Origin: Oscillatoriaceae cyanobacterium M7585_C2015_266
GTDB lineage: Bacteria > Cyanobacteriota > Cyanobacteriia > Cyanobacteriales > Oscillatoriaceae
Direction: 5' to 3'
Assembly: GCA_015295835.1 (NCBI GenBank)
Contig: DVEG01000004.1
Location: forward strand, 248,001-312,000
DNA: 64,000 bases
Shown here: piece after piece, positions 4,849 through 30,965 of the stretch
How the letters are laid out: every line of letters begins with the position of its first letter
Position numbering within the stretch: position 1 is the first letter of the stretch
Notes under the pieces: generated by a model
What the model saw: only the letters and a program-made list of their open reading frames with translations
The model's database searches: none
Told to the model about the DNA's origin: nothing
Program-made: the position numbers and the translations under genes

Positions 4849-6630
4849 ATGAGAAAATTTTTCCTGGCATGTTTGTTTTTAATAGGATTAGGTTGGGCCC
4901 TATTTAATTTCCAGGGGCTAGCTAACCAAGGTAAATTTGAGAGTATAGTGTTGGATTTCCGAGAGGAGGTGCCAGCAACCCAGATAGAAACTCAGATAAA
5001 AGCGATCGCGCAACAGTTCAAAGTCACACCCCATCTCAATAGTTTCATTTCAGCAGCCGATAATCTCTACATCGTAAACGGCGACAAGCAATTGCTAAAA
5101 GCCCTGAAAAAATCCAATGTTGCCAAATACACCGAATACATAGAACCCAACTACATATATTCAGCGCTTGCTGCTCCTAACGATCCCTTATGGAGTCAGC
5201 AGTGGAACTTGCGCAGCATTAACGTCGAAAGAGCTTGGGAAGAGACTAAAGGCAATGGCGTCACTGTCGCTGTCATAGATACCGGCGTCAGTCGCGTTCC
5301 CGACTTAAAAAATACTAAATTCACTAAAGGTTACGACTTTGTAAACGATAAAGCCGAAGTAGAAGATGACAATGGGCACGGCACACACATTGCAGGCACG
5401 ATTGCCCAAAGTACTAATAACGGCTACGGCGTGGCTGGCATTGCCTACGAAGCAAGCATAATGCCTTTGAAAGTACTAAGTGCCGGCGGCAACGGCACGA
5501 GCGCTGATATTGCCGAAGCAATTAAATTTGCCGCTGACAACGGCGCAGATGTCATTAACCTGAGTTTAGGTGGCAGTGGCGAAAGCCAGATGATACAAGA
5601 GGCAATTAATTATGCCTATAGTAAAGGTGTTGTCATTGTTGCTGCAGCAGGTAACGAAAACAAAAGTTCTGCCGGCTATCCCGCCCGCTATGCTAATGTC
5701 ATCGGCGTCTCTGCTCTTGATGCCAGCGGCTCAAAAGCTTTCTACTCTAATTTCGGAGCTGGCGTAGATATCTCCGCTCCTGGAGGCGATACTAGTAATG
5801 GCGAAATCGGCGGTATTCTACAAAATACAATTAATACTGAATCTGGTCAACCTGTCTTTGCCGCTTACCAAGGCACAAGCATGGCTTGCCCCCATGTGGC
5901 GGCTGTCGCTGCTTTGATTAAGGCTGTTGGCGTTAAAGATCCTAATGATGTGCGCAGCATCTTGCTCTCTTCAGCTCGTAAAGTTGAAAATGACCCCCTT
6001 AACCACTTCGGAGCGGGTCAATTAGATGCCGCCGCTGCAATAGAATTGGCAACTAAAGGACAATTTAGCTTCCGCGATTTCTTCCGCTGGCTGCGAGAAA
6101 ATGGCTATCTTAATTTGGGTTTCTGGATTGATGGCGGTGCTGTTGCCCTCCTGCCTAAAATTGCAATGGTTTTGGGTTCCTATTTGTTGGCGTGGTTGTT
6201 GCGCAATTATTTCTCTTTCCGCTGGAACTGGTTTTTTGCTAGTGGTCTAGTTGCTGGTAGTTCTGGGCTTTTCTTCCTGCGCGGTTTTTATATCTTTGAT
6301 GTGCCTCAGTGGCCATTTCGAGTTATGGGTAGTTCTATCCCTGAATTGGGGGGAGCTATACAGGGTAGCAGTGTGTTGAACCCGTTTTTTGCTAGTGTGC
6401 TGATTCCTACGATTCTGGTGGTGCTATTGCTGGGGCACCAACAATGGAAATGGTTTGCGATCGCTACGGCTATTGGCTTCTCTTGCTGTCTGGCTGTAAA
6501 CGCTGTAGTTTCGCCTGCTGTCTGGGGCTTGGGAACAGGAGCGCTCGCTCGCTCTTTCCTCGCTGTCAATGCTTTGCTTTGTTTCGCATTAGCCCGTCTG
6601 GCTCTTAAGGATGAAATAAAACTAGCATGA
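4849..6630 (+). CDS. S8 family subtilisin-like serine protease with C-terminal membrane domain
   Basis: Secreted or membrane-anchored endopeptidase. A signal sequence covers residues 1-25 and an I9-like propeptide about 30-105. The catalytic domain shows D144 (VAVIDTGVS), H177 (NGHGTHIAGT), oxyanion N269 (AAAGNE) and nucleophile S344 (GTSMACPHVA). After residue 420 come four or five hydrophobic segments to residue 593, unusual for simple secreted subtilisins. This implies the protease is tethered to the plasma or thylakoid membrane. The TGA stop overlaps the ATG of the next gene (ATGA), so the two are probably translationally coupled. Substrate unknown. Confidence 0.93.
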   Translation: MRKFFLACLFLIGLGWALFNFQGLANQGKFESIVLDFREEVPATQIETQIKAIAQQFKVTPHLNSFISAADNLYIVNGDKQLLKALKKSNVAKYTEYIEPNYIYSALAAPNDPLWSQQWNLRSINVERAWEETKGNGVTVAVIDTGVSRVPDLKNTKFTKGYDFVNDKAEVEDDNGHGTHIAGTIAQSTNNGYGVAGIAYEASIMPLKVLSAGGNGTSADIAEAIKFAADNGADVINLSLGGSGESQMIQEAINYAYSKGVVIVAAAGNENKSSAGYPARYANVIGVSALDASGSKAFYSNFGAGVDISAPGGDTSNGEIGGILQNTINTESGQPVFAAYQGTSMACPHVAAVAALIKAVGVKDPNDVRSILLSSARKVENDPLNHFGAGQLDAAAAIELATKGQFSFRDFFRWLRENGYLNLGFWIDGGAVALLPKIAMVLGSYLLAWLLRNYFSFRWNWFFASGLVAGSSGLFFLRGFYIFDVPQWPFRVMGSSIPELGGAIQGSSVLNPFFASVLIPTILVVLLLGHQQWKWFAIATAIGFSCCLAVNAVVSPAVWGLGTGALARSFLAVNALLCFALARLALKDEIKLA

Positions 6631-6854
6631 ATATCAGTGTTGAAGGTAAAATCGAACGTAAAGGCTTCGGAACTGGAACCTGGGCCATTATTAGCGACAA
6701 TGGTCAATCTTATGAAATTTATCAGGGCGCACCAAATGCACTGCTCAAATCCGGACAAAAAGTTAAAGTCACTGGCAAAGTGCGCAATGATATTATGACT
6801 ATGGCCATGATTGGCCCGGTTCTGGAAGTGCAAACTTTTGAAGTCCTTGATTGA
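6627..6854 (+). CDS. Small OB-fold-like protein coupled to the protease gene
   Basis: 75-aa, all-beta-looking protein (MNISVEGKIERKGFGTGTWAIISDNGQSY...KVKVTGKVRND). The alternation of short strands and the VEGxIxxxG..W.I..DNG pattern suggests a miniature OB fold like those binding oligonucleotides or acting as periplasmic inhibitors. The function is not known to me. Its ATG overlaps the protease stop by 4 bases. The tight coupling suggests the product modulates or accompanies the protease, an inference from position only. Confidence 0.8.
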   Translation: MNISVEGKIERKGFGTGTWAIISDNGQSYEIYQGAPNALLKSGQKVKVTGKVRNDIMTMAMIGPVLEVQTFEVLD

Positions 6855-6882
6855 AAAAAATCCCCGGTTTAATCAACCGGGG
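6855..6882 (-). terminator. Intrinsic terminator on minus strand, end of a candidate small RNA
   Basis: CCCCGGTT (6862-6869) pairs with AACCGGGG (6875-6882). On the minus strand the hairpin is followed by a run of seven T (6855-6861). No minus-strand gene ends here, so it may end a short non-coding transcript from about 6950. Confidence 0.7.
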
Positions 6883-6955
6883 ACGTTCATCAGGGTGCAT
6901 CTACCATAACACTCTTACACTCGCGAGTGTGTTTTTCCGGATTGAGATTAATAAA
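6883..6955 (-). ncRNA. Candidate small RNA ending at the 6855-6882 terminator
   Basis: Inferred from an orphan minus-strand terminator. Upstream of it the minus strand contains a perfect 14-bp palindrome ACACTCGCGAGTGT (6918-6931), which folds as a CGCG-loop hairpin, and then about 35 unpaired bases. The candidate would be roughly 100 nt long, the size of cyanobacterial Yfr RNAs. The Yfr1 core (ACUCCUCACAC) and a clear Yfr2-type GGAAACA were not found. The promoter is not convincing (T/A-rich stretch near 6950). Confidence 0.3.
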
Positions 6956-7827: not shown

Positions 7828-10245
7828 GTGACTCGGGAATTAGAATTTCATGTTTCTGTAACCCCGGTAGGGATAGACGAATACCTCGTTAGGACAGAAC
7901 AAGTGGCCCCTGGTGTGCCTTTGGCTGAAGAACAGGTTCGCTGGCCACTGGAAGAGTGGTTGGCGCAAGCGCGACAGCTAATGAAAGACCCTTTGCTGGG
8001 CTTGCTGGAAAGTGAAAAACCCTACACAGGAAGAGATAGGTTTACAAATTTAGACCCTAGACAAGAGTTAAACCTGATAGCCCTAGGGCAGCAGCTCTAT
8101 AACTCGCTGTTTCAAGGTACTTTAAGAGATAGTTGGACGGCAGCACAAAGTATCGCTCAGCACCGACGAGAGGTGTTGCGCCTAAGGTTAGGTTTAAAAG
8201 GAAACCGCCTACCCCGTTTACCTTGGGAAGTACTGCACGCAGGCGATCGCCCAATTGCTACCGGCACAAACATACTATTTTCCCGCTATCAACCCAACAA
8301 GGGCGTCAGCCATTGGCTTTGCTCACAATCTTCAAGCAACTCCTCTCTAAAAATATTAATGGCGATCGCAGCTCCCACCGACAGAGAAAGCCTAGAACTC
8401 AAACGGGAAGCCCTGCACCTACAGCAAGAACTGCAAAACCGTTCTGCCAGAGAAAGAGCAACGCTTCCAGCAATGGAAATAACTATCCTAGAACAACCGG
8501 ATCGCGCTGCTCTTACTCAAGCTCTAGAACAAAGTAAATATCATGTCTTTCATTATGCAGGTCACAGCAACTTAGGAACAGCAGGCGGAGAACTTTACCT
8601 TGTTAATCGCCGCACAGGCTTAACCGAAACTTTAAACGGCTCTGACTTGGCAGGTTTGCTAGCAAATAATGGCATCCAGTTAGCTGTTTTTAATTCCTGT
8701 CGAGGAGCACACACTGTTACAGCAGACCCCACCGCAGACTCAGGTGAACGCTCTCTTGCTGAAGCTCTTGTGAGTTTGGGTATTCCTGCTGTTCTGGCTA
8801 TGGCAGAAAGGATTCCAGATGATGTAGCCCTCACCTTGGCACGTTTATTTTACCGCAATCTCAATCAGGGCTATCCGGTAGATTTGAGTCTGAGTCGAGC
8901 TCGGCAAGGGTTGATTTCTGCTTACGGTTCTCATCAACTGTACTGGGCTTTACCAATTCTTTACCTGCACCCAGAATTTGACGGCTATCTCTCTTCTAAT
9001 CAGCGCCAAGTTGAAACTTTATATACACCTACAAAAGAATTCAGTTTTCCTCTGTCTCAAGATGAGGCGCTGTTGTCTTCAAAACCTTCTAATCTAGAAG
9101 AGTTCGAAGAGCTGAGCCAAGAAGAAATCGAGGGGATATTGGATGAAGTAGAATACGACGCACTCAATGAGCCAGAAGTGTCAGGTTTAGTTACGGATTT
9201 GCTGCGCCAGCTATCTAATTCTGAAAATAATTCAAGTCCATATGCACTGTCGAATGTCAATCAATCGCTTTCTGATGAAAGTGGTAGCAAGGGTTCTTTG
9301 CAAGCGCTCGCCCCACCAACACCACCTAACCAAGCAAGCGAATCTCAAGTTTCTAGAGCAGAAATACCGCCTAATAGGCGCCGACGCAGTGTTTCTTTCT
9401 GGAAAATGCGAGGGCTTGGTCCATTGCTTTGGCTACTACTCTGCGTATTGGGAATAATTAGCTTGTGGCACTTTCGTGACTTTCTGTTGATAGGGAATCC
9501 TAAACCAGTGGAGATGCCAACTGTGCCTCCAGTTGTCCCAACTAATCCAAAGTTTGAGCGTTTGGATTTAAGGAAAGCGAGTACGACGGAGCTTGTGGCG
9601 ATCGCAATTTCAGAGTTTAGTAAAGGTAATTTAAGCAATGGGCAAAAAGCCGTAGAAACTTTACTTGATCGCAATGCCCTGCAAGAAGCTAAAGCAGCTC
9701 TCAGCGCTGTTCCCAATAGTCAAAAAGACGAGCAAATAATTAACTTTCTCTACGGGCGGATGGCTTGGCAGTTTGTGCAATCTGGCGAAAGAGATTACAG
9801 TCTCCAAGATGTACGCCGTTACTGGGAAGCTGTTATCCGAGAACAACCTAAGTTGCCGCTTTATTATAATGCTCTAGGTTTTGCTTACTATGCCGACGGG
9901 GATGTAAATCGGGCTTCCGATATGTGGTCTCTCGTTACTACTTTAGAACCGGAAAAGGAGGGCCAACCTGCTTCATCTGGCAAAACTACGCAATCCCGTC
10001 TGAGTAAAGATGTGGCGATCGCTTATGCCGGTAGAGCTCTTGTACTTTGGAAAAGTGCTCTTAACCAGCCTCCTGCCGAACAAGTCTCTCGTTTGAAACG
10101 GGCGATCGAATTTCGTCAAAAGGTTTTAGCCTCCGATCCTTTGGGCTTTCAAATAGACGCCCTCAGCAATGACTGGCTGTGGCCTGAAGTTGCTATTCAG
10201 GATTGGCGCTCGCTCCTCGCTCTCAAAGAGCCAGTCGTTAAGTGA
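7828..10245 (+). CDS. CHAT-domain caspase-like protease, HetF-like architecture
   Basis: Cysteine peptidase-type protein of the CHAT family (Caspase, HetF Associated with TPRs). The N-terminal CHAT domain (about 1-390) carries the dyad H246 (HYAGHSNLG) and C291 (FNSCRGAH). An acidic Ser/Glu-rich linker (400-520), one membrane helix (about 532-550) and a Pro-rich hinge follow. A C-terminal helical TPR-like domain (600-805) contains PLYYNALGFAYYADGDVNRA. Length 805 and this order match what I recall for HetF, a regulator of cell division and heterocyst patterning, but many cyanobacterial CHAT proteins exist, so I give no symbol. GTG start with AGGAG 12 bases upstream. Stands alone. Confidence 0.88.
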   Translation: MTRELEFHVSVTPVGIDEYLVRTEQVAPGVPLAEEQVRWPLEEWLAQARQLMKDPLLGLLESEKPYTGRDRFTNLDPRQELNLIALGQQLYNSLFQGTLRDSWTAAQSIAQHRREVLRLRLGLKGNRLPRLPWEVLHAGDRPIATGTNILFSRYQPNKGVSHWLCSQSSSNSSLKILMAIAAPTDRESLELKREALHLQQELQNRSARERATLPAMEITILEQPDRAALTQALEQSKYHVFHYAGHSNLGTAGGELYLVNRRTGLTETLNGSDLAGLLANNGIQLAVFNSCRGAHTVTADPTADSGERSLAEALVSLGIPAVLAMAERIPDDVALTLARLFYRNLNQGYPVDLSLSRARQGLISAYGSHQLYWALPILYLHPEFDGYLSSNQRQVETLYTPTKEFSFPLSQDEALLSSKPSNLEEFEELSQEEIEGILDEVEYDALNEPEVSGLVTDLLRQLSNSENNSSPYALSNVNQSLSDESGSKGSLQALAPPTPPNQASESQVSRAEIPPNRRRRSVSFWKMRGLGPLLWLLLCVLGIISLWHFRDFLLIGNPKPVEMPTVPPVVPTNPKFERLDLRKASTTELVAIAISEFSKGNLSNGQKAVETLLDRNALQEAKAALSAVPNSQKDEQIINFLYGRMAWQFVQSGERDYSLQDVRRYWEAVIREQPKLPLYYNALGFAYYADGDVNRASDMWSLVTTLEPEKEGQPASSGKTTQSRLSKDVAIAYAGRALVLWKSALNQPPAEQVSRLKRAIEFRQKVLASDPLGFQIDALSNDWLWPEVAIQDWRSLLALKEPVVK

Positions 10246-26992: not shown

Positions 26993-27700
26993 TTAAATTG
27001 ACAGACAGTCTGAAGAAGAATCAAAACTTTCTGTCGACATCAAATTAGTCGGAATTCCCAGCACCGCACAAGGAAAATCATCGCCCAGTTCACGGATAAT
27101 TGAATGATTGGCAGATTTACAGCCTAAAAATAGCAAGGTAGCAGCTTCTTCTTCCACAACTTTTCTCAGTTCTTTAGCAATATTACCAAACCGCAGGTGA
27201 GCGGTGAAAGAGCCACGCCATTCTTCAGCCAGACAGCGAGCTTGCCATAAAATATGATCCGCTCGTTCAAGAGCTGTTATTGGAGCTGAAATAGTTTTAA
27301 AGCACTGCAGCTCGGAGGATGTCAGGCGCGAGCTAGCTGCCAGCCATTTTCTTACGGGTTGAGCGCTCTCAGTATTCTCGCAGTTTGACGAAGCAACCAA
27401 CGAGCTTTTTGTCAAGTTGAATAAATCTGAATACTGGCTAATTTGATTCTCATCTAAAACATATACAACTTGAACGGTGACTGGCTTACTTGTGGCGATG
27501 CGCGTTTGATGAGCCATCCAAAGGGCAAGATCGAGAGCCGTTTGACTTCTGGGAGAGCTGCTGTAGCCAACCACTAAATTTACTGATTTTTTAGAATCTG
27601 AGGCAGATGCTACTGGTTCTGGGCGCAACACCATTTGTTCGATTAAGTCATTACGACCAAGTGCGCTTTCCAGACGGGCTAACATTGACTTGACATTCAC
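26993..27700 (-). CDS. Universal stress protein (UspA family)
   Basis: About 235 aa, one Usp domain with an N-terminal extension typical of cyanobacterial members (MLARLESALGRNDLIEQMVL). VNLVVGYSSSPRSQTALDLALWMA is the first strand/helix, and the C-terminal ATLLFLGCKSANHSIIRELGDDFPCAVLGIP replaces the classic G-x2-G-x9-G nucleotide loop with a weaker version. ATP binding is therefore uncertain. Start chosen at the GTG (27700), which has GAGAGG 8 bases upstream; ATG at 27667 is an alternative. Same strand as the ion transporter upstream; both may respond to osmotic or ionic stress. Confidence 0.85.
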   Translation of the reverse strand: MNVKSMLARLESALGRNDLIEQMVLRPEPVASASDSKKSVNLVVGYSSSPRSQTALDLALWMAHQTRIATSKPVTVQVVYVLDENQISQYSDLFNLTKSSLVASSNCENTESAQPVRKWLAASSRLTSSELQCFKTISAPITALERADHILWQARCLAEEWRGSFTAHLRFGNIAKELRKVVEEEAATLLFLGCKSANHSIIRELGDDFPCAVLGIPTNLMSTESFDSSSDCLSI

Positions 27701-28093
27701 AGCTTTAACCTCTCTCAATTGAAATGAATCGCAAGACTAGGTAGGCCACCTGCTCAATTACTCAAGCTATTTCCAGTATAATTTACTCCTGTAGTTTTCA
27801 GTAGCGTTCAATACAATCTCTGGCACGGTTGTCAAGTTGAAAATAATTCCGGAATTCCTGCCATTTTTTATAATTAAACTAGCATGCTGAGCAGATAGCG
27901 TCAATCTCTCTTAAGTAGTAAATTTTGTTATTTAGACTACCTTCAATGTCCATTAATTGTACATATTTTTTGCTGGGGCGAGCTTTCTCCCACTACTCCG
28001 CCTAAAGAGTAAGTGAAAAGGATAAGAAATAACCCGCCAGGAACTCTGCTAGTTGGAACCGAACAACTGCACTTTTAACACCTAATTGCAAAA
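27701..28093. other. Spacer between Usp gene and transporter
   Basis: About 390 bp, mixed composition, no gene. It contains the palindrome ATTCCGGAAT near 27845 and several short T-runs. No strong terminator for the transporter was found, so read-through into the Usp gene is possible. Confidence 0.4.
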
Positions 28094-29431
28094 CTACATC
28101 AAAAACCGAATAGTTATGTAAAAAGCGGCTACAAATAACTGCATAACCATCACGGGAAATCCGTAGCGCAAGAACGTTTTAAAAGAAATCCGGCGACCGT
28201 GCAGTTCGGAAACACCTGCTGCTACAATATTAGCAGATGCACCTACCAGCGTGCCATTTCCTCCCAGAGTGGCGCCAAACATCATCGCATAAAATAAGGG
28301 TAGCACTTCTGGAGGAAATTGCCCTTGAAAGTCGGGAGACAATATTTCTGCAGGTGCTAGCCCAACATTAACTACATACTTTTTGAGCAATGGCACCATT
28401 GCTGCGACTAAGGGGATATTGGGTATAACGCTGGATATTATCCCGATAACAAAAAGCAAAACCATAGAACCTAAAGCGATATTTTTCCCTAAGACAAAGG
28501 CTAAGATTTCCGAAATGCCATCGATGACTCCGGTTTTTTCCAACCCGCCTATTAAAACAAATGTAGACATAAAAAATAATAAGGTACTCCAGTCTACATC
28601 TCGTAAGATATTGTTAACAGAATCAATTTGGCTGTGGTGAGCAAGTAGTAATGCCAAAGCGGCTCCCAACAAAGCAACAGCAGCGGGTGAGATGGGAATA
28701 GGCAGGTTTTCTCCAAATACAAAAAATATTAGTACAAAGGCGATGATTAGACTGCCGATAGCCAGAATTCGCGGATGATTGATTTGCGGGTGGGGAAGGT
28801 GTTCTAAATCGTCTAGTTTTTTCCGCCAGGTTTTAGGGAATAACCACGGTAGCATTATTAATATAGTGGCGATCGCTATCACTCCTCCCAGACTCAATTT
28901 TACCAAGTAATCTGTAAAACTGATATTCACAGCATTACCGACAATAAAAGTAGCTGGATCGCCAACTATCGTCAGCAATCCTGCACTATTTGCTACAAGC
29001 ACCATCAGAATTAGCAAGGGTACAAAATCCACTCCAATTTCTTCTGCCATTGGAGGAATTAGTGGTGCCAGTAACATCACAGTTGTTGCATTTGGCAAAA
29101 AGGCACATATGGGAGTTGTAATTCCTACAATCCCCAGCAGCAAACGCTTGCCTTTTCCTTTTGCCAGCAATACTATCTGAGTTGCTAAATAGTCAAATAT
29201 TTTCGTCGGTTCAAATGCTCTCACGAGTACCATGACGCCGAAGAATAAGCCAAGGGTGGCGTGACTACGGCTGATATATCCGATCGCTTCGTTTAATGTC
29301 ATTATATTGGTAAAAACCAGTATTAACGCCCCTAAAAAAGCAGCAATAGTTAGGTGGATACATTCTGTTATTACTAAAAAAATTACGCTGATAAATGTTG
29401 TGGTTGCTACAATTGCTTGCCAGTTTTCCAC
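28094..29431 (-). CDS. ArsB/NhaD-family ion transporter (anion/Na+:H+ antiporter type)
   Basis: 445 aa polytopic membrane protein with 11-12 helices in two inverted halves. ITTPICAFLPNATTVMLLAPLIPPMAEEIG and FGATLGGNGTLVGASANIVAAGVSELHGRRISF (cited as landmarks, residues about 110-135 and 390-420) carry the paired Asn/Gly motifs of the IT superfamily; DPATFIVGNAVNISF is the third. Substrate cannot be fixed: ArsB-like, NhaD-like or SLC13-like. The c-di-AMP riboswitch in its leader favours a role in Na+/K+ or osmotic balance rather than arsenite export; no ars genes are near. Confidence 0.88.
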   Translation of the reverse strand: MENWQAIVATTTFISVIFLVITECIHLTIAAFLGALILVFTNIMTLNEAIGYISRSHATLGLFFGVMVLVRAFEPTKIFDYLATQIVLLAKGKGKRLLLGIVGITTPICAFLPNATTVMLLAPLIPPMAEEIGVDFVPLLILMVLVANSAGLLTIVGDPATFIVGNAVNISFTDYLVKLSLGGVIAIATILIMLPWLFPKTWRKKLDDLEHLPHPQINHPRILAIGSLIIAFVLIFFVFGENLPIPISPAAVALLGAALALLLAHHSQIDSVNNILRDVDWSTLLFFMSTFVLIGGLEKTGVIDGISEILAFVLGKNIALGSMVLLFVIGIISSVIPNIPLVAAMVPLLKKYVVNVGLAPAEILSPDFQGQFPPEVLPLFYAMMFGATLGGNGTLVGASANIVAAGVSELHGRRISFKTFLRYGFPVMVMQLFVAAFYITIRFLM

Positions 29432-29549
29432 TTAATTCCTCCATCTATTACGATTAAACATTTCCGAATTTGTGTATGCTAAAACTGCCCGCGCCGAAAC
29501 ACGCGAAGCGCTCGCTATTGACTGTTAAATTACATTAAATCCAAGCTCT

Positions 29550-29571
29550 GGCCGCAAATTATTTTGCGGCC
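29550..29571. promoter_or_regulatory. Strong GC hairpin in transporter leader
   Basis: GGCCGCAAA (29550-29558) and TTTGCGGCC (29563-29571) form a perfect 9-bp stem with a TTAT loop. It lies between the riboswitch and the transporter start. No T-run follows on either strand, so it is not a classic terminator. AAGGAGG precedes it on the minus strand. Possible part of the expression platform. Confidence 0.45.
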
Positions 29572-29739
29572 CTCCTTAGAAGACTGTAAGTAATATTTCT
29601 ACAGGCTGTAAAAAATCCGATTTATTAATATCATAAAGCCTCCCTTGCTGTCAGGATTCATGCAAAAAGTCGTCTCTCTGAGATAACAGGGAAGCTGATG
29701 AGAACGGCAAGCTTTTGATTAAGAATGCTGTCTCTTCAG

Positions 29740-29945
29740 TCCCCCTCAATGCCGACGGAGTTAGCTGACGGGCTAGGGCTGAGAGGTACCCTTCTCCTGA
29801 AGCAGAAAAGCTAAAAGGTCAATGGTAAAAAATTGCTTAACAATATCTCCCTTTTGCCTTAGAACTTCCGCTTTGCAAAGATACGCCCCATAAAAAATTT
29901 GGTTCCTCCGCTCTAACACTCACCCTTTCAGTTGCTTGCCCTAAA
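29740..29945 (-). ncRNA. c-di-AMP riboswitch (ydaO/yuaA type) in transporter leader
   Basis: Read on the minus strand, the leader contains three conserved ydaO blocks in the right order. GAGCGGAGGAACCA is complementary to 29900-29913, GGGGCGTATC to 29880-29889, and CCCGTCAGCTAAC to 29760-29772, the last followed by TCCGTCGGC. These match the aptamer consensus GAGC.GGGGAACCA, GGGGUGAAUC and CCCGUCAGCUAAC..CGU.GGC. It lies about 310 bp before the transporter ATG. Members of this class bind c-di-AMP and usually repress ion transporter or wall genes. Ends are approximate and no clear terminator helix was identified downstream. Confidence 0.85.
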
Positions 29946-29973
29946 AGCCTGAGAGTTAGATTAGGCTGACTAT

Positions 29974-30065
29974 ATATAGCGCGTCTAAATCATTTGTACA
30001 TGTTGAAATGGTTTGGACACGTTCGCACCTCAAGTAATTGTACAAATTATTTAGGTTCGCTATAT
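29974..30065. repeat. Imperfect 27-bp inverted repeat, miniature-element-like
   Basis: Arms 29974-30000 and 30039-30065 agree at 23 of 27 positions: ATATAGCG, three variable bases, CTAAAT, one variable base, ATTTGTACA. They flank a 38-bp spacer. The arm reads into the presumed promoter of the riboswitch transcript. Structure is that of a small palindromic intergenic repeat. Confidence 0.6.
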
Positions 30066-30329
30066 TTTCAATTTCGATTATATTATATAATAGCATTTCT
30101 TTCCAAAAATGTCAAGCCCCCGCTCTGCTGAGTTTGAGAAGTGATAAAAGCTAGAAATTTCTCTGAAAGGCAAATATAGAATAGCAGAGAGGTAGGTAGA
30201 AAATTGCAGAAGGAAAGGCACAGCACGAAAATAACACGAATGCAGTAATAGAAACCTGTTTCAGGTTATCCGTGCTGTATAATGATAATGGTAATAATGG
30301 TAAATGGAAAATTCTCCATTAACAAAAAT

Positions 30330-30965
30330 TTATTTAGATAATTCGCTATTGAATTCATTGAAAGAGCGTTGTTTTAATTCAATAGATTGCGAACGTGGTG
30401 GTAAATTAAACAGCTTACGGAAGACATCATCAACCTGCTCGAATGGTACTTTACCCGTAACATTGAAAACGACTTTACCAGATTGATCGAGTAAAACTGT
30501 TTGGGGCACTGCGCCAGAAAAGTAATAGCCGGGGTCTGTTGGTTCGTAAGTAGATTTAGGGAAAATCGCATCGGCATTTATAGGGATAAAATCTGCTACT
30601 TGTCCGTAGAAAGATTGCAGATTAGAAACAACGTTTGCGTATTGTTTGCAATCGCTGCTGTCATCTACATAGAAAACTAAAAACGCTGGTTTGCCTCGCT
30701 GCAAAGAATCTGCAAGAGTGACTTTGGGGGGCACAAGAGAGCCATTACCGCCATAAAGAGCAAAAATATTACCGTCGAAATTATCGTCATTGATACCAGC
30801 TAGAGCAGGCGGCGTTAACAGCAACAGAGAGCCCACTGTGACTAAAAGCGCTAACAGACAGGTAGAAACGACTCGTCGCCACTGGTAGCAAAGAGCCAAG
30901 AAATAGCCTGGAAGAGCGATCGCAGTTTTCAAAAATTGCAACCCAAAAACCATCATCTCAAACAA
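30330..30965 (-). CDS. Thioredoxin-fold thylakoid protein, photosystem I accumulation factor-like
   Basis: 211 aa. N-terminal membrane segment (about 32-55, ending PPALAG) then a thioredoxin-like domain: NIFALYGGNGSLVPPKVTLADSL, FLVFYVDDSSDCKQYANVV, DFIPINADAIFP, GAVPQTVLLDQSGKVVFNVTG. The cis-Pro (AVPQT) is present. The redox CxxC is missing: only one Cys (DSSDCKQY) remains at that place, so it cannot work as a dithiol oxidoreductase. I recall cyanobacterial homologues annotated as a thylakoid photosystem I accumulation factor; that name is from memory. Single gene. Confidence 0.8.
   Translation of the reverse strand: MFEMMVFGLQFLKTAIALPGYFLALCYQWRRVVSTCLLALLVTVGSLLLLTPPALAGINDDNFDGNIFALYGGNGSLVPPKVTLADSLQRGKPAFLVFYVDDSSDCKQYANVVSNLQSFYGQVADFIPINADAIFPKSTYEPTDPGYYFSGAVPQTVLLDQSGKVVFNVTGKVPFEQVDDVFRKLFNLPPRSQSIELKQRSFNEFNSELSK

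Follow-up and report, generated by a model that had tools for sequence, protein, structure and literature searches.

In Synechocystis, a c-di-AMP riboswitch regulates slr0753, which encodes a putative chloride-efflux transporter, according to the available excerpt of a 2023 review (PMC10117731), and Ncr1680-slr0753 is listed as a conserved arrangement in the accessible part of a transcriptome paper (PMC5386190). The pairing of riboswitch and transporter is already known from this organism. In the excerpt of a salt-stress study, no Slr0753 protein was found and another candidate gene alone was named as salt-induced; Nelson 2013 is cited in other papers for osmoprotectant genes in cyanobacteria. 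A precedent for control in the off-direction is the kdp riboswitch of Bacillus thuringiensis, as given in the available part of PMC6488665. The locus described here lies in a window of 64,000 nucleotides (the whole stretch of DNA analysed, to which all coordinates refer unless a locus is named) from Oscillatoriaceae cyanobacterium M7585_C2015_266. It very probably represents a canonical RF00379 riboswitch with an expanded P2 stem, heading the leader of a single-copy slr0753-like transporter gene under c-di-AMP off-control, with transcription attenuation as the likely ancestral mode.

A scan of the whole window with cmscan and Rfam 15 gave a match to the c-di-AMP riboswitch family RF00379 at 29935-29736 on the minus strand (48.9 bits, E 2.5e-8; gathering score 38 bits). 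The original prediction had placed a c-di-AMP riboswitch on the minus strand from consensus blocks found in order, and had named a search of this strand with the Rfam ydaO-yuaA model as the check; the blocks are present as claimed, and class and strand are borne out by the score above threshold. In the whole genome (3.98 Mb) this is the sole RF00379 match above the cut-off; a weaker match (C23, 27.2 bits) was rejected, as it lies antisense within a 298-aa ORF and is not matched by the cyanobacterial model R1. R1 was built from 27 aligned aptamers of the 77 suitable cyanobacterial ones, the window being excluded and four members of its family included. It scored the window at 111.6 bits (E 8.8e-26, 29974-29736, minus strand) and matched nowhere else in the 64 kb, even at E values as high as 10; all 41 columns invariant across the 27 aptamers are kept, and all pairs in the R1 alignment are standard. 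The window's Rfam score is the second lowest among the over-threshold matches listed, as would suit a chance or degenerate look-alike; the low score is accounted for by the misplacement of P1 in RF00379 (see below), and the R1 score, obtained without the window in training, refutes this explanation, the probability of which is close to nil. The aptamer lies in the 5' leader of the transporter gene and on the same strand, and a diadenylate cyclase domain (PF02457, DAC; E 5.6e-39) is encoded in the genome as a putative source of the ligand. Sequence and comparison together establish the aptamer with its conserved core, show that it recurs ahead of the transporter in relatives, and reveal a diadenylate cyclase gene in the genome.

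A single match to NsiR1 (nitrogen stress-induced RNA 1), a heterocyst-associated RNA, was also recorded in the window at 6853-6906 on the minus strand (57.2 bits versus the Rfam cut-off of 39). It is flanked on one side by a subtilase-like ORF (4849-6630) and on the other by an ORF of 805 aa (7828-10245) which we take to encode a CHAT-domain, hetF-like protein; no tandem array of NsiR1 was found. At another cyanobacterial locus (L114, 2451-2511), the Rfam Plastid-psbN 5'UTR model was matched with 54.3 bits (cut-off 50).

The R1 alignment sets the corrected extent of the aptamer at 29736-29974 on the minus strand, of which the Rfam match covers just 29736-29935. The extent first claimed, 29740-29945, captured the aptamer but fell about 30 nt short of its 5' limit. 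The 5' strand of P1 (GCC, 29966-29964) lies within an exact copy of the block GTCAGCCTAATC (29970-29959), 35 nt upstream of the Rfam start, and in the consensus fold of the R1 alignment its 3' strand is GGC at 29751-29753. Two of the four P1 pairs are non-standard when the window is aligned by Rfam. The true P1 strand was missed both by Rfam and by the original prediction because P2 is expanded; this stem spans 29913-29959 in the window fold, with arms at 29959-29951 and 29921-29913, and a long variable hairpin insert, 75-78 nt of which are hidden in the model alignments, occupies 29795-29886. With up to two mismatches allowed, GTCAGCCTAATC was found in 106 of 155 aptamers and was missing from 49, and shuffled controls gave two matches. 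In 61 of the 106 the block begins 0-9 nt downstream of the Rfam start; in 44, among them the window, more than 8 nt separate it from the Rfam match. RNAalifold likewise placed P1 at the GTCAGCCTAATC block in its consensus of the 27 aptamers, where 14 of 26 consensus pairs show changes on both sides with pairing kept in at least one of the 27 sequences. The P2 arms pair at five or more of six positions in 58 of 79 aptamers, compared with about 30 after the arms were swapped (76 of the 155 aptamers were dropped from this control, the anchor being missing). The energy-minimum fold of 29970-29660 contains the same P1 and P2 as the consensus.

The gene behind the aptamer (28094-29431, minus strand) encodes a CitMHS/ArsB-like transporter of 445 aa with a GTG start, GGAGG being located upstream at 29442-29438 (PF03600, E 1e-61; PF02040 (ArsB), E 1.2e-14), and is the sole copy in the genome. 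The distance from the aptamer to the GTG at 29431 is about 305 nt, close to the 310 bp proposed before, and the polytopic transporter with a neighbouring universal stress protein (Usp) gene is as had been described; the Usp-domain protein has 241 aa (26993-27718, minus strand; PF00582, E 1.9e-6). The proposed ArsB/NhaD type is retained as regards an ion transporter as the target, but not as regards ArsB or NhaD identity, since the curated NCBIfam cut-offs were missed by the ArsB models (107 bits, cut-off 457; 93.3, cut-off 415; 91.2, cut-off 760) and by the NhaD models (50.9 bits, cut-off 577.1; 41, cut-off 80). The features of an slr0753-type protein were found, namely CitMHS membership, a single close homologue and a gene that follows a c-di-AMP riboswitch. 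Each of the four Synechocystis-like genomes has one strong match to the window transporter, with 71-73% identity; an aptamer directly precedes this gene in three of them (G076, G080, G093), and in the fourth (G014) the gene follows an aptamer at a distance of about 3.2 kb. In both genomes of this Synechocystis-like genus that were tested, SbtA is near-identical to PDB Slr1512. The window transporter is inferred to be the slr0753 orthologue by way of these Synechocystis-like genomes rather than of slr0753 itself.

RF00379 occurs in 93 of 386 cyanobacterial genomes (293 without a match) and in all eight genomes of the window's family. The context sample comprised 154 over-threshold aptamers outside the window from 99 related genomes, with less than 2.9 kb of downstream sequence for 31 of the aptamers. 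The first recognised downstream gene was an Nrt-like ABC permease (57), a Usp gene (43), an slr0753-like transporter (39), an ABC ATPase (1) or something else (14), so that in 140 of 154 cases it belongs to one of three recurrent modules; the 14 others include what, by eye, we take to be glycosyltransferases, cation antiporters and a P-type ATPase. This three-module pattern may already be in print. The link to the transporter and the Usp gene, which had been regarded as unusual, is common in cyanobacteria (39 + 43 of 154), and its transporter part is published for Synechocystis slr0753. Within the stretches compared, 51 of the 80 named transporter loci include an aptamer; a Usp gene intervenes before the transporter in 36 of these and is lacking there in 15. 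Counted among the 51 is L116, whose aptamer, truncated at the contig end, lies 2.9 kb upstream. No aptamer was found at the other 29 loci in the stretch compared, some of these stretches being incomplete.

At L136 (7325-7729, genome G390), an internal deletion has reduced the transporter behind the aptamer to an ORF of 134 aa with just short transporter matches. The aptamer-transporter interval of L056 (1255-1565) holds a short remnant which by eye resembles the start of an ABC permease, as if a deletion had put the transporter behind the permease's aptamer.

Several family relatives show the order aptamer, transporter, aptamer, ABC permease, binding protein, ATPase, Usp, and three of these carry a third aptamer before Usp. 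The ABC block that parts transporter from Usp in these relatives is absent from the window. It was most likely lost, since the ABC binding protein has no close relative in the window genome (best identity 36-39%) and no second, decayed aptamer was found before the window Usp gene at E up to 10.

Upstream of the aptamer, a candidate promoter, TTGACA-17-TATTAT, was recognised by consensus match (30087-30115, minus strand; 11 of 12 positions). Between it and the aptamer lies a 92-bp imperfect inverted repeat (29974-30065, minus strand) with 27-nt arms that are 85% complementary; the region 30080-29968 folds strongly (-28.2 kcal/mol), and no such repeat was seen in the relatives' leaders compared. 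An origin of this repeat from a repeat family is unsupported, one copy being present in the genome. Directly 3' of the aptamer, a stem-loop at 29689-29745 (minus strand) folds with about -21 kcal/mol, and a similar sequence was seen by eye in family relatives. The 9-bp GC hairpin at 29550-29571 (minus strand), which had been offered as the expression platform, exists as a perfect palindrome with a loop of 4; the proposed role was discarded, because the hairpin has no T-run, occurs once in the genome, and has its 9-nt arm within 700 nt downstream of 1 of 154 aptamers only (in an ABC-permease leader). A short ORF common to the leaders was considered by eye and dropped because it is absent from some relatives.

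The missing terminator helix of the original prediction was confirmed: there is no terminator-like site in 29300-30350, and with a separate finder no candidate stronger than -3.7 kcal/mol emerged within the 250 nt that follow the aptamer, so that a stable hairpin with a T-run, as in an intrinsic terminator, does not stand between aptamer and gene in the window. The transporter leaders of six of seven family relatives carry a terminator-like hairpin of -8.8 to -10.8 kcal/mol, which follows the Rfam end at a distance of 102-105 nt; in the seventh (G386) the hairpin, located before ATTTTT, is weaker at about -4.9 kcal/mol. This place is occupied in the window by a weak, remnant-like hairpin at 29664-29687 (minus strand; -3.1 to -4.3 kcal/mol), which is followed by TTTTT and is not called a terminator. 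Over all aptamers, terminator-like hairpins at -8 kcal/mol are moderately enriched only (52 of 154, versus 22 of 154 shuffles). Transcription attenuation is likely the ancestral mode, as the terminator is carried by the family relatives, and the read-out in the window genome is uncertain, as no strong intrinsic terminator is predicted there.

If the terminator was lost in the window lineage, the aptamer might bind c-di-AMP and control translation or RNA decay rather than termination, a reading that we regard as a serious, if less probable, contender. It is favoured by the lack of a terminator-like site in 29300-30350 and the weak homologous hairpin (about -3 to -4 kcal/mol), as well as by the many cyanobacterial ABC-permease leaders in which a mere 45-100 nt or so separate the aptamer from the start of the coding match and translation control is plausible; the window start codon, however, lies about 305 nt from the aptamer, which is long for direct masking of a ribosome-binding site, and the aptamer was not seen to pair with the Shine-Dalgarno sequence in the window leader. 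Very improbably, the riboswitch could instead be decaying, with the ABC block lost, the aptamer kept and the platform gone: the weakened terminator, the 92-bp inverted repeat between promoter and aptamer and a Usp gene without its own aptamer would agree with this, but the aptamer itself speaks against it, with none of its 41 invariant columns altered and every model pair standard.

If, as we prefer, the canonical riboswitch keeps the transporter under off-control, the window aptamer would bind c-di-AMP by analogy with its class, and high c-di-AMP would lower transporter expression as in studied class members, so that anion export by the predicted chloride-efflux-type transporter would track the osmotic or ionic state. 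To switch off anion export is the most probable role of the window riboswitch, with direction and read-out inferred from the class. Against this reading weigh the missing terminator, the long spacing to the start codon, the 29 of 80 transporter loci and 293 of 386 genomes in which no aptamer was found, the salt-stress result on Slr0753, and the moderate enrichment of terminator-like hairpins. In a wider reading, which as a whole is rather unlikely, the cyanobacterial c-di-AMP riboswitch would serve a single compact regulon for anion homeostasis. This regulon would consist of three modules, an slr0753-like transporter, an Nrt-like ABC importer and Usp, each of which frequently has a separate aptamer. 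In the window lineage the cluster would have shrunk to a single aptamer with transporter and Usp, and the leader would have replaced termination by a different read-out, to which the 92-bp hairpin at the RNA 5' end might contribute; Usp might be a second, protein-level c-di-AMP sensor.

Riboswitch class and target are both known, and the locus is a well-supported new example of their pairing; the corrected 5' boundary and the regulon count are useful additions. RF00379 misplaces P1 in members with an expanded P2, and these therefore receive lower scores; the 140 of 154 aptamers before three recurrent modules point cyanobacterial c-di-AMP work at anion transport.

Compared with the kdpFABC riboswitch of B. 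thuringiensis, as described in the available part of PMC6488665, the window aptamer likewise precedes an ion-transport gene; c-di-AMP promotes an intrinsic terminator there, whereas none was found in the window. With the ydaO/yuaA leader of RF00379 it shares the conserved core and the stem order and passes the gathering score, but it differs in the expanded P2 and the long hairpin insert, and Rfam puts its P1 35 nt too far 3'. The Synechocystis slr0753 leader, likened by description from the accessible parts of PMC5386190 and PMC10117731, combines the same kind of RNA with the same kind of transporter as the window.
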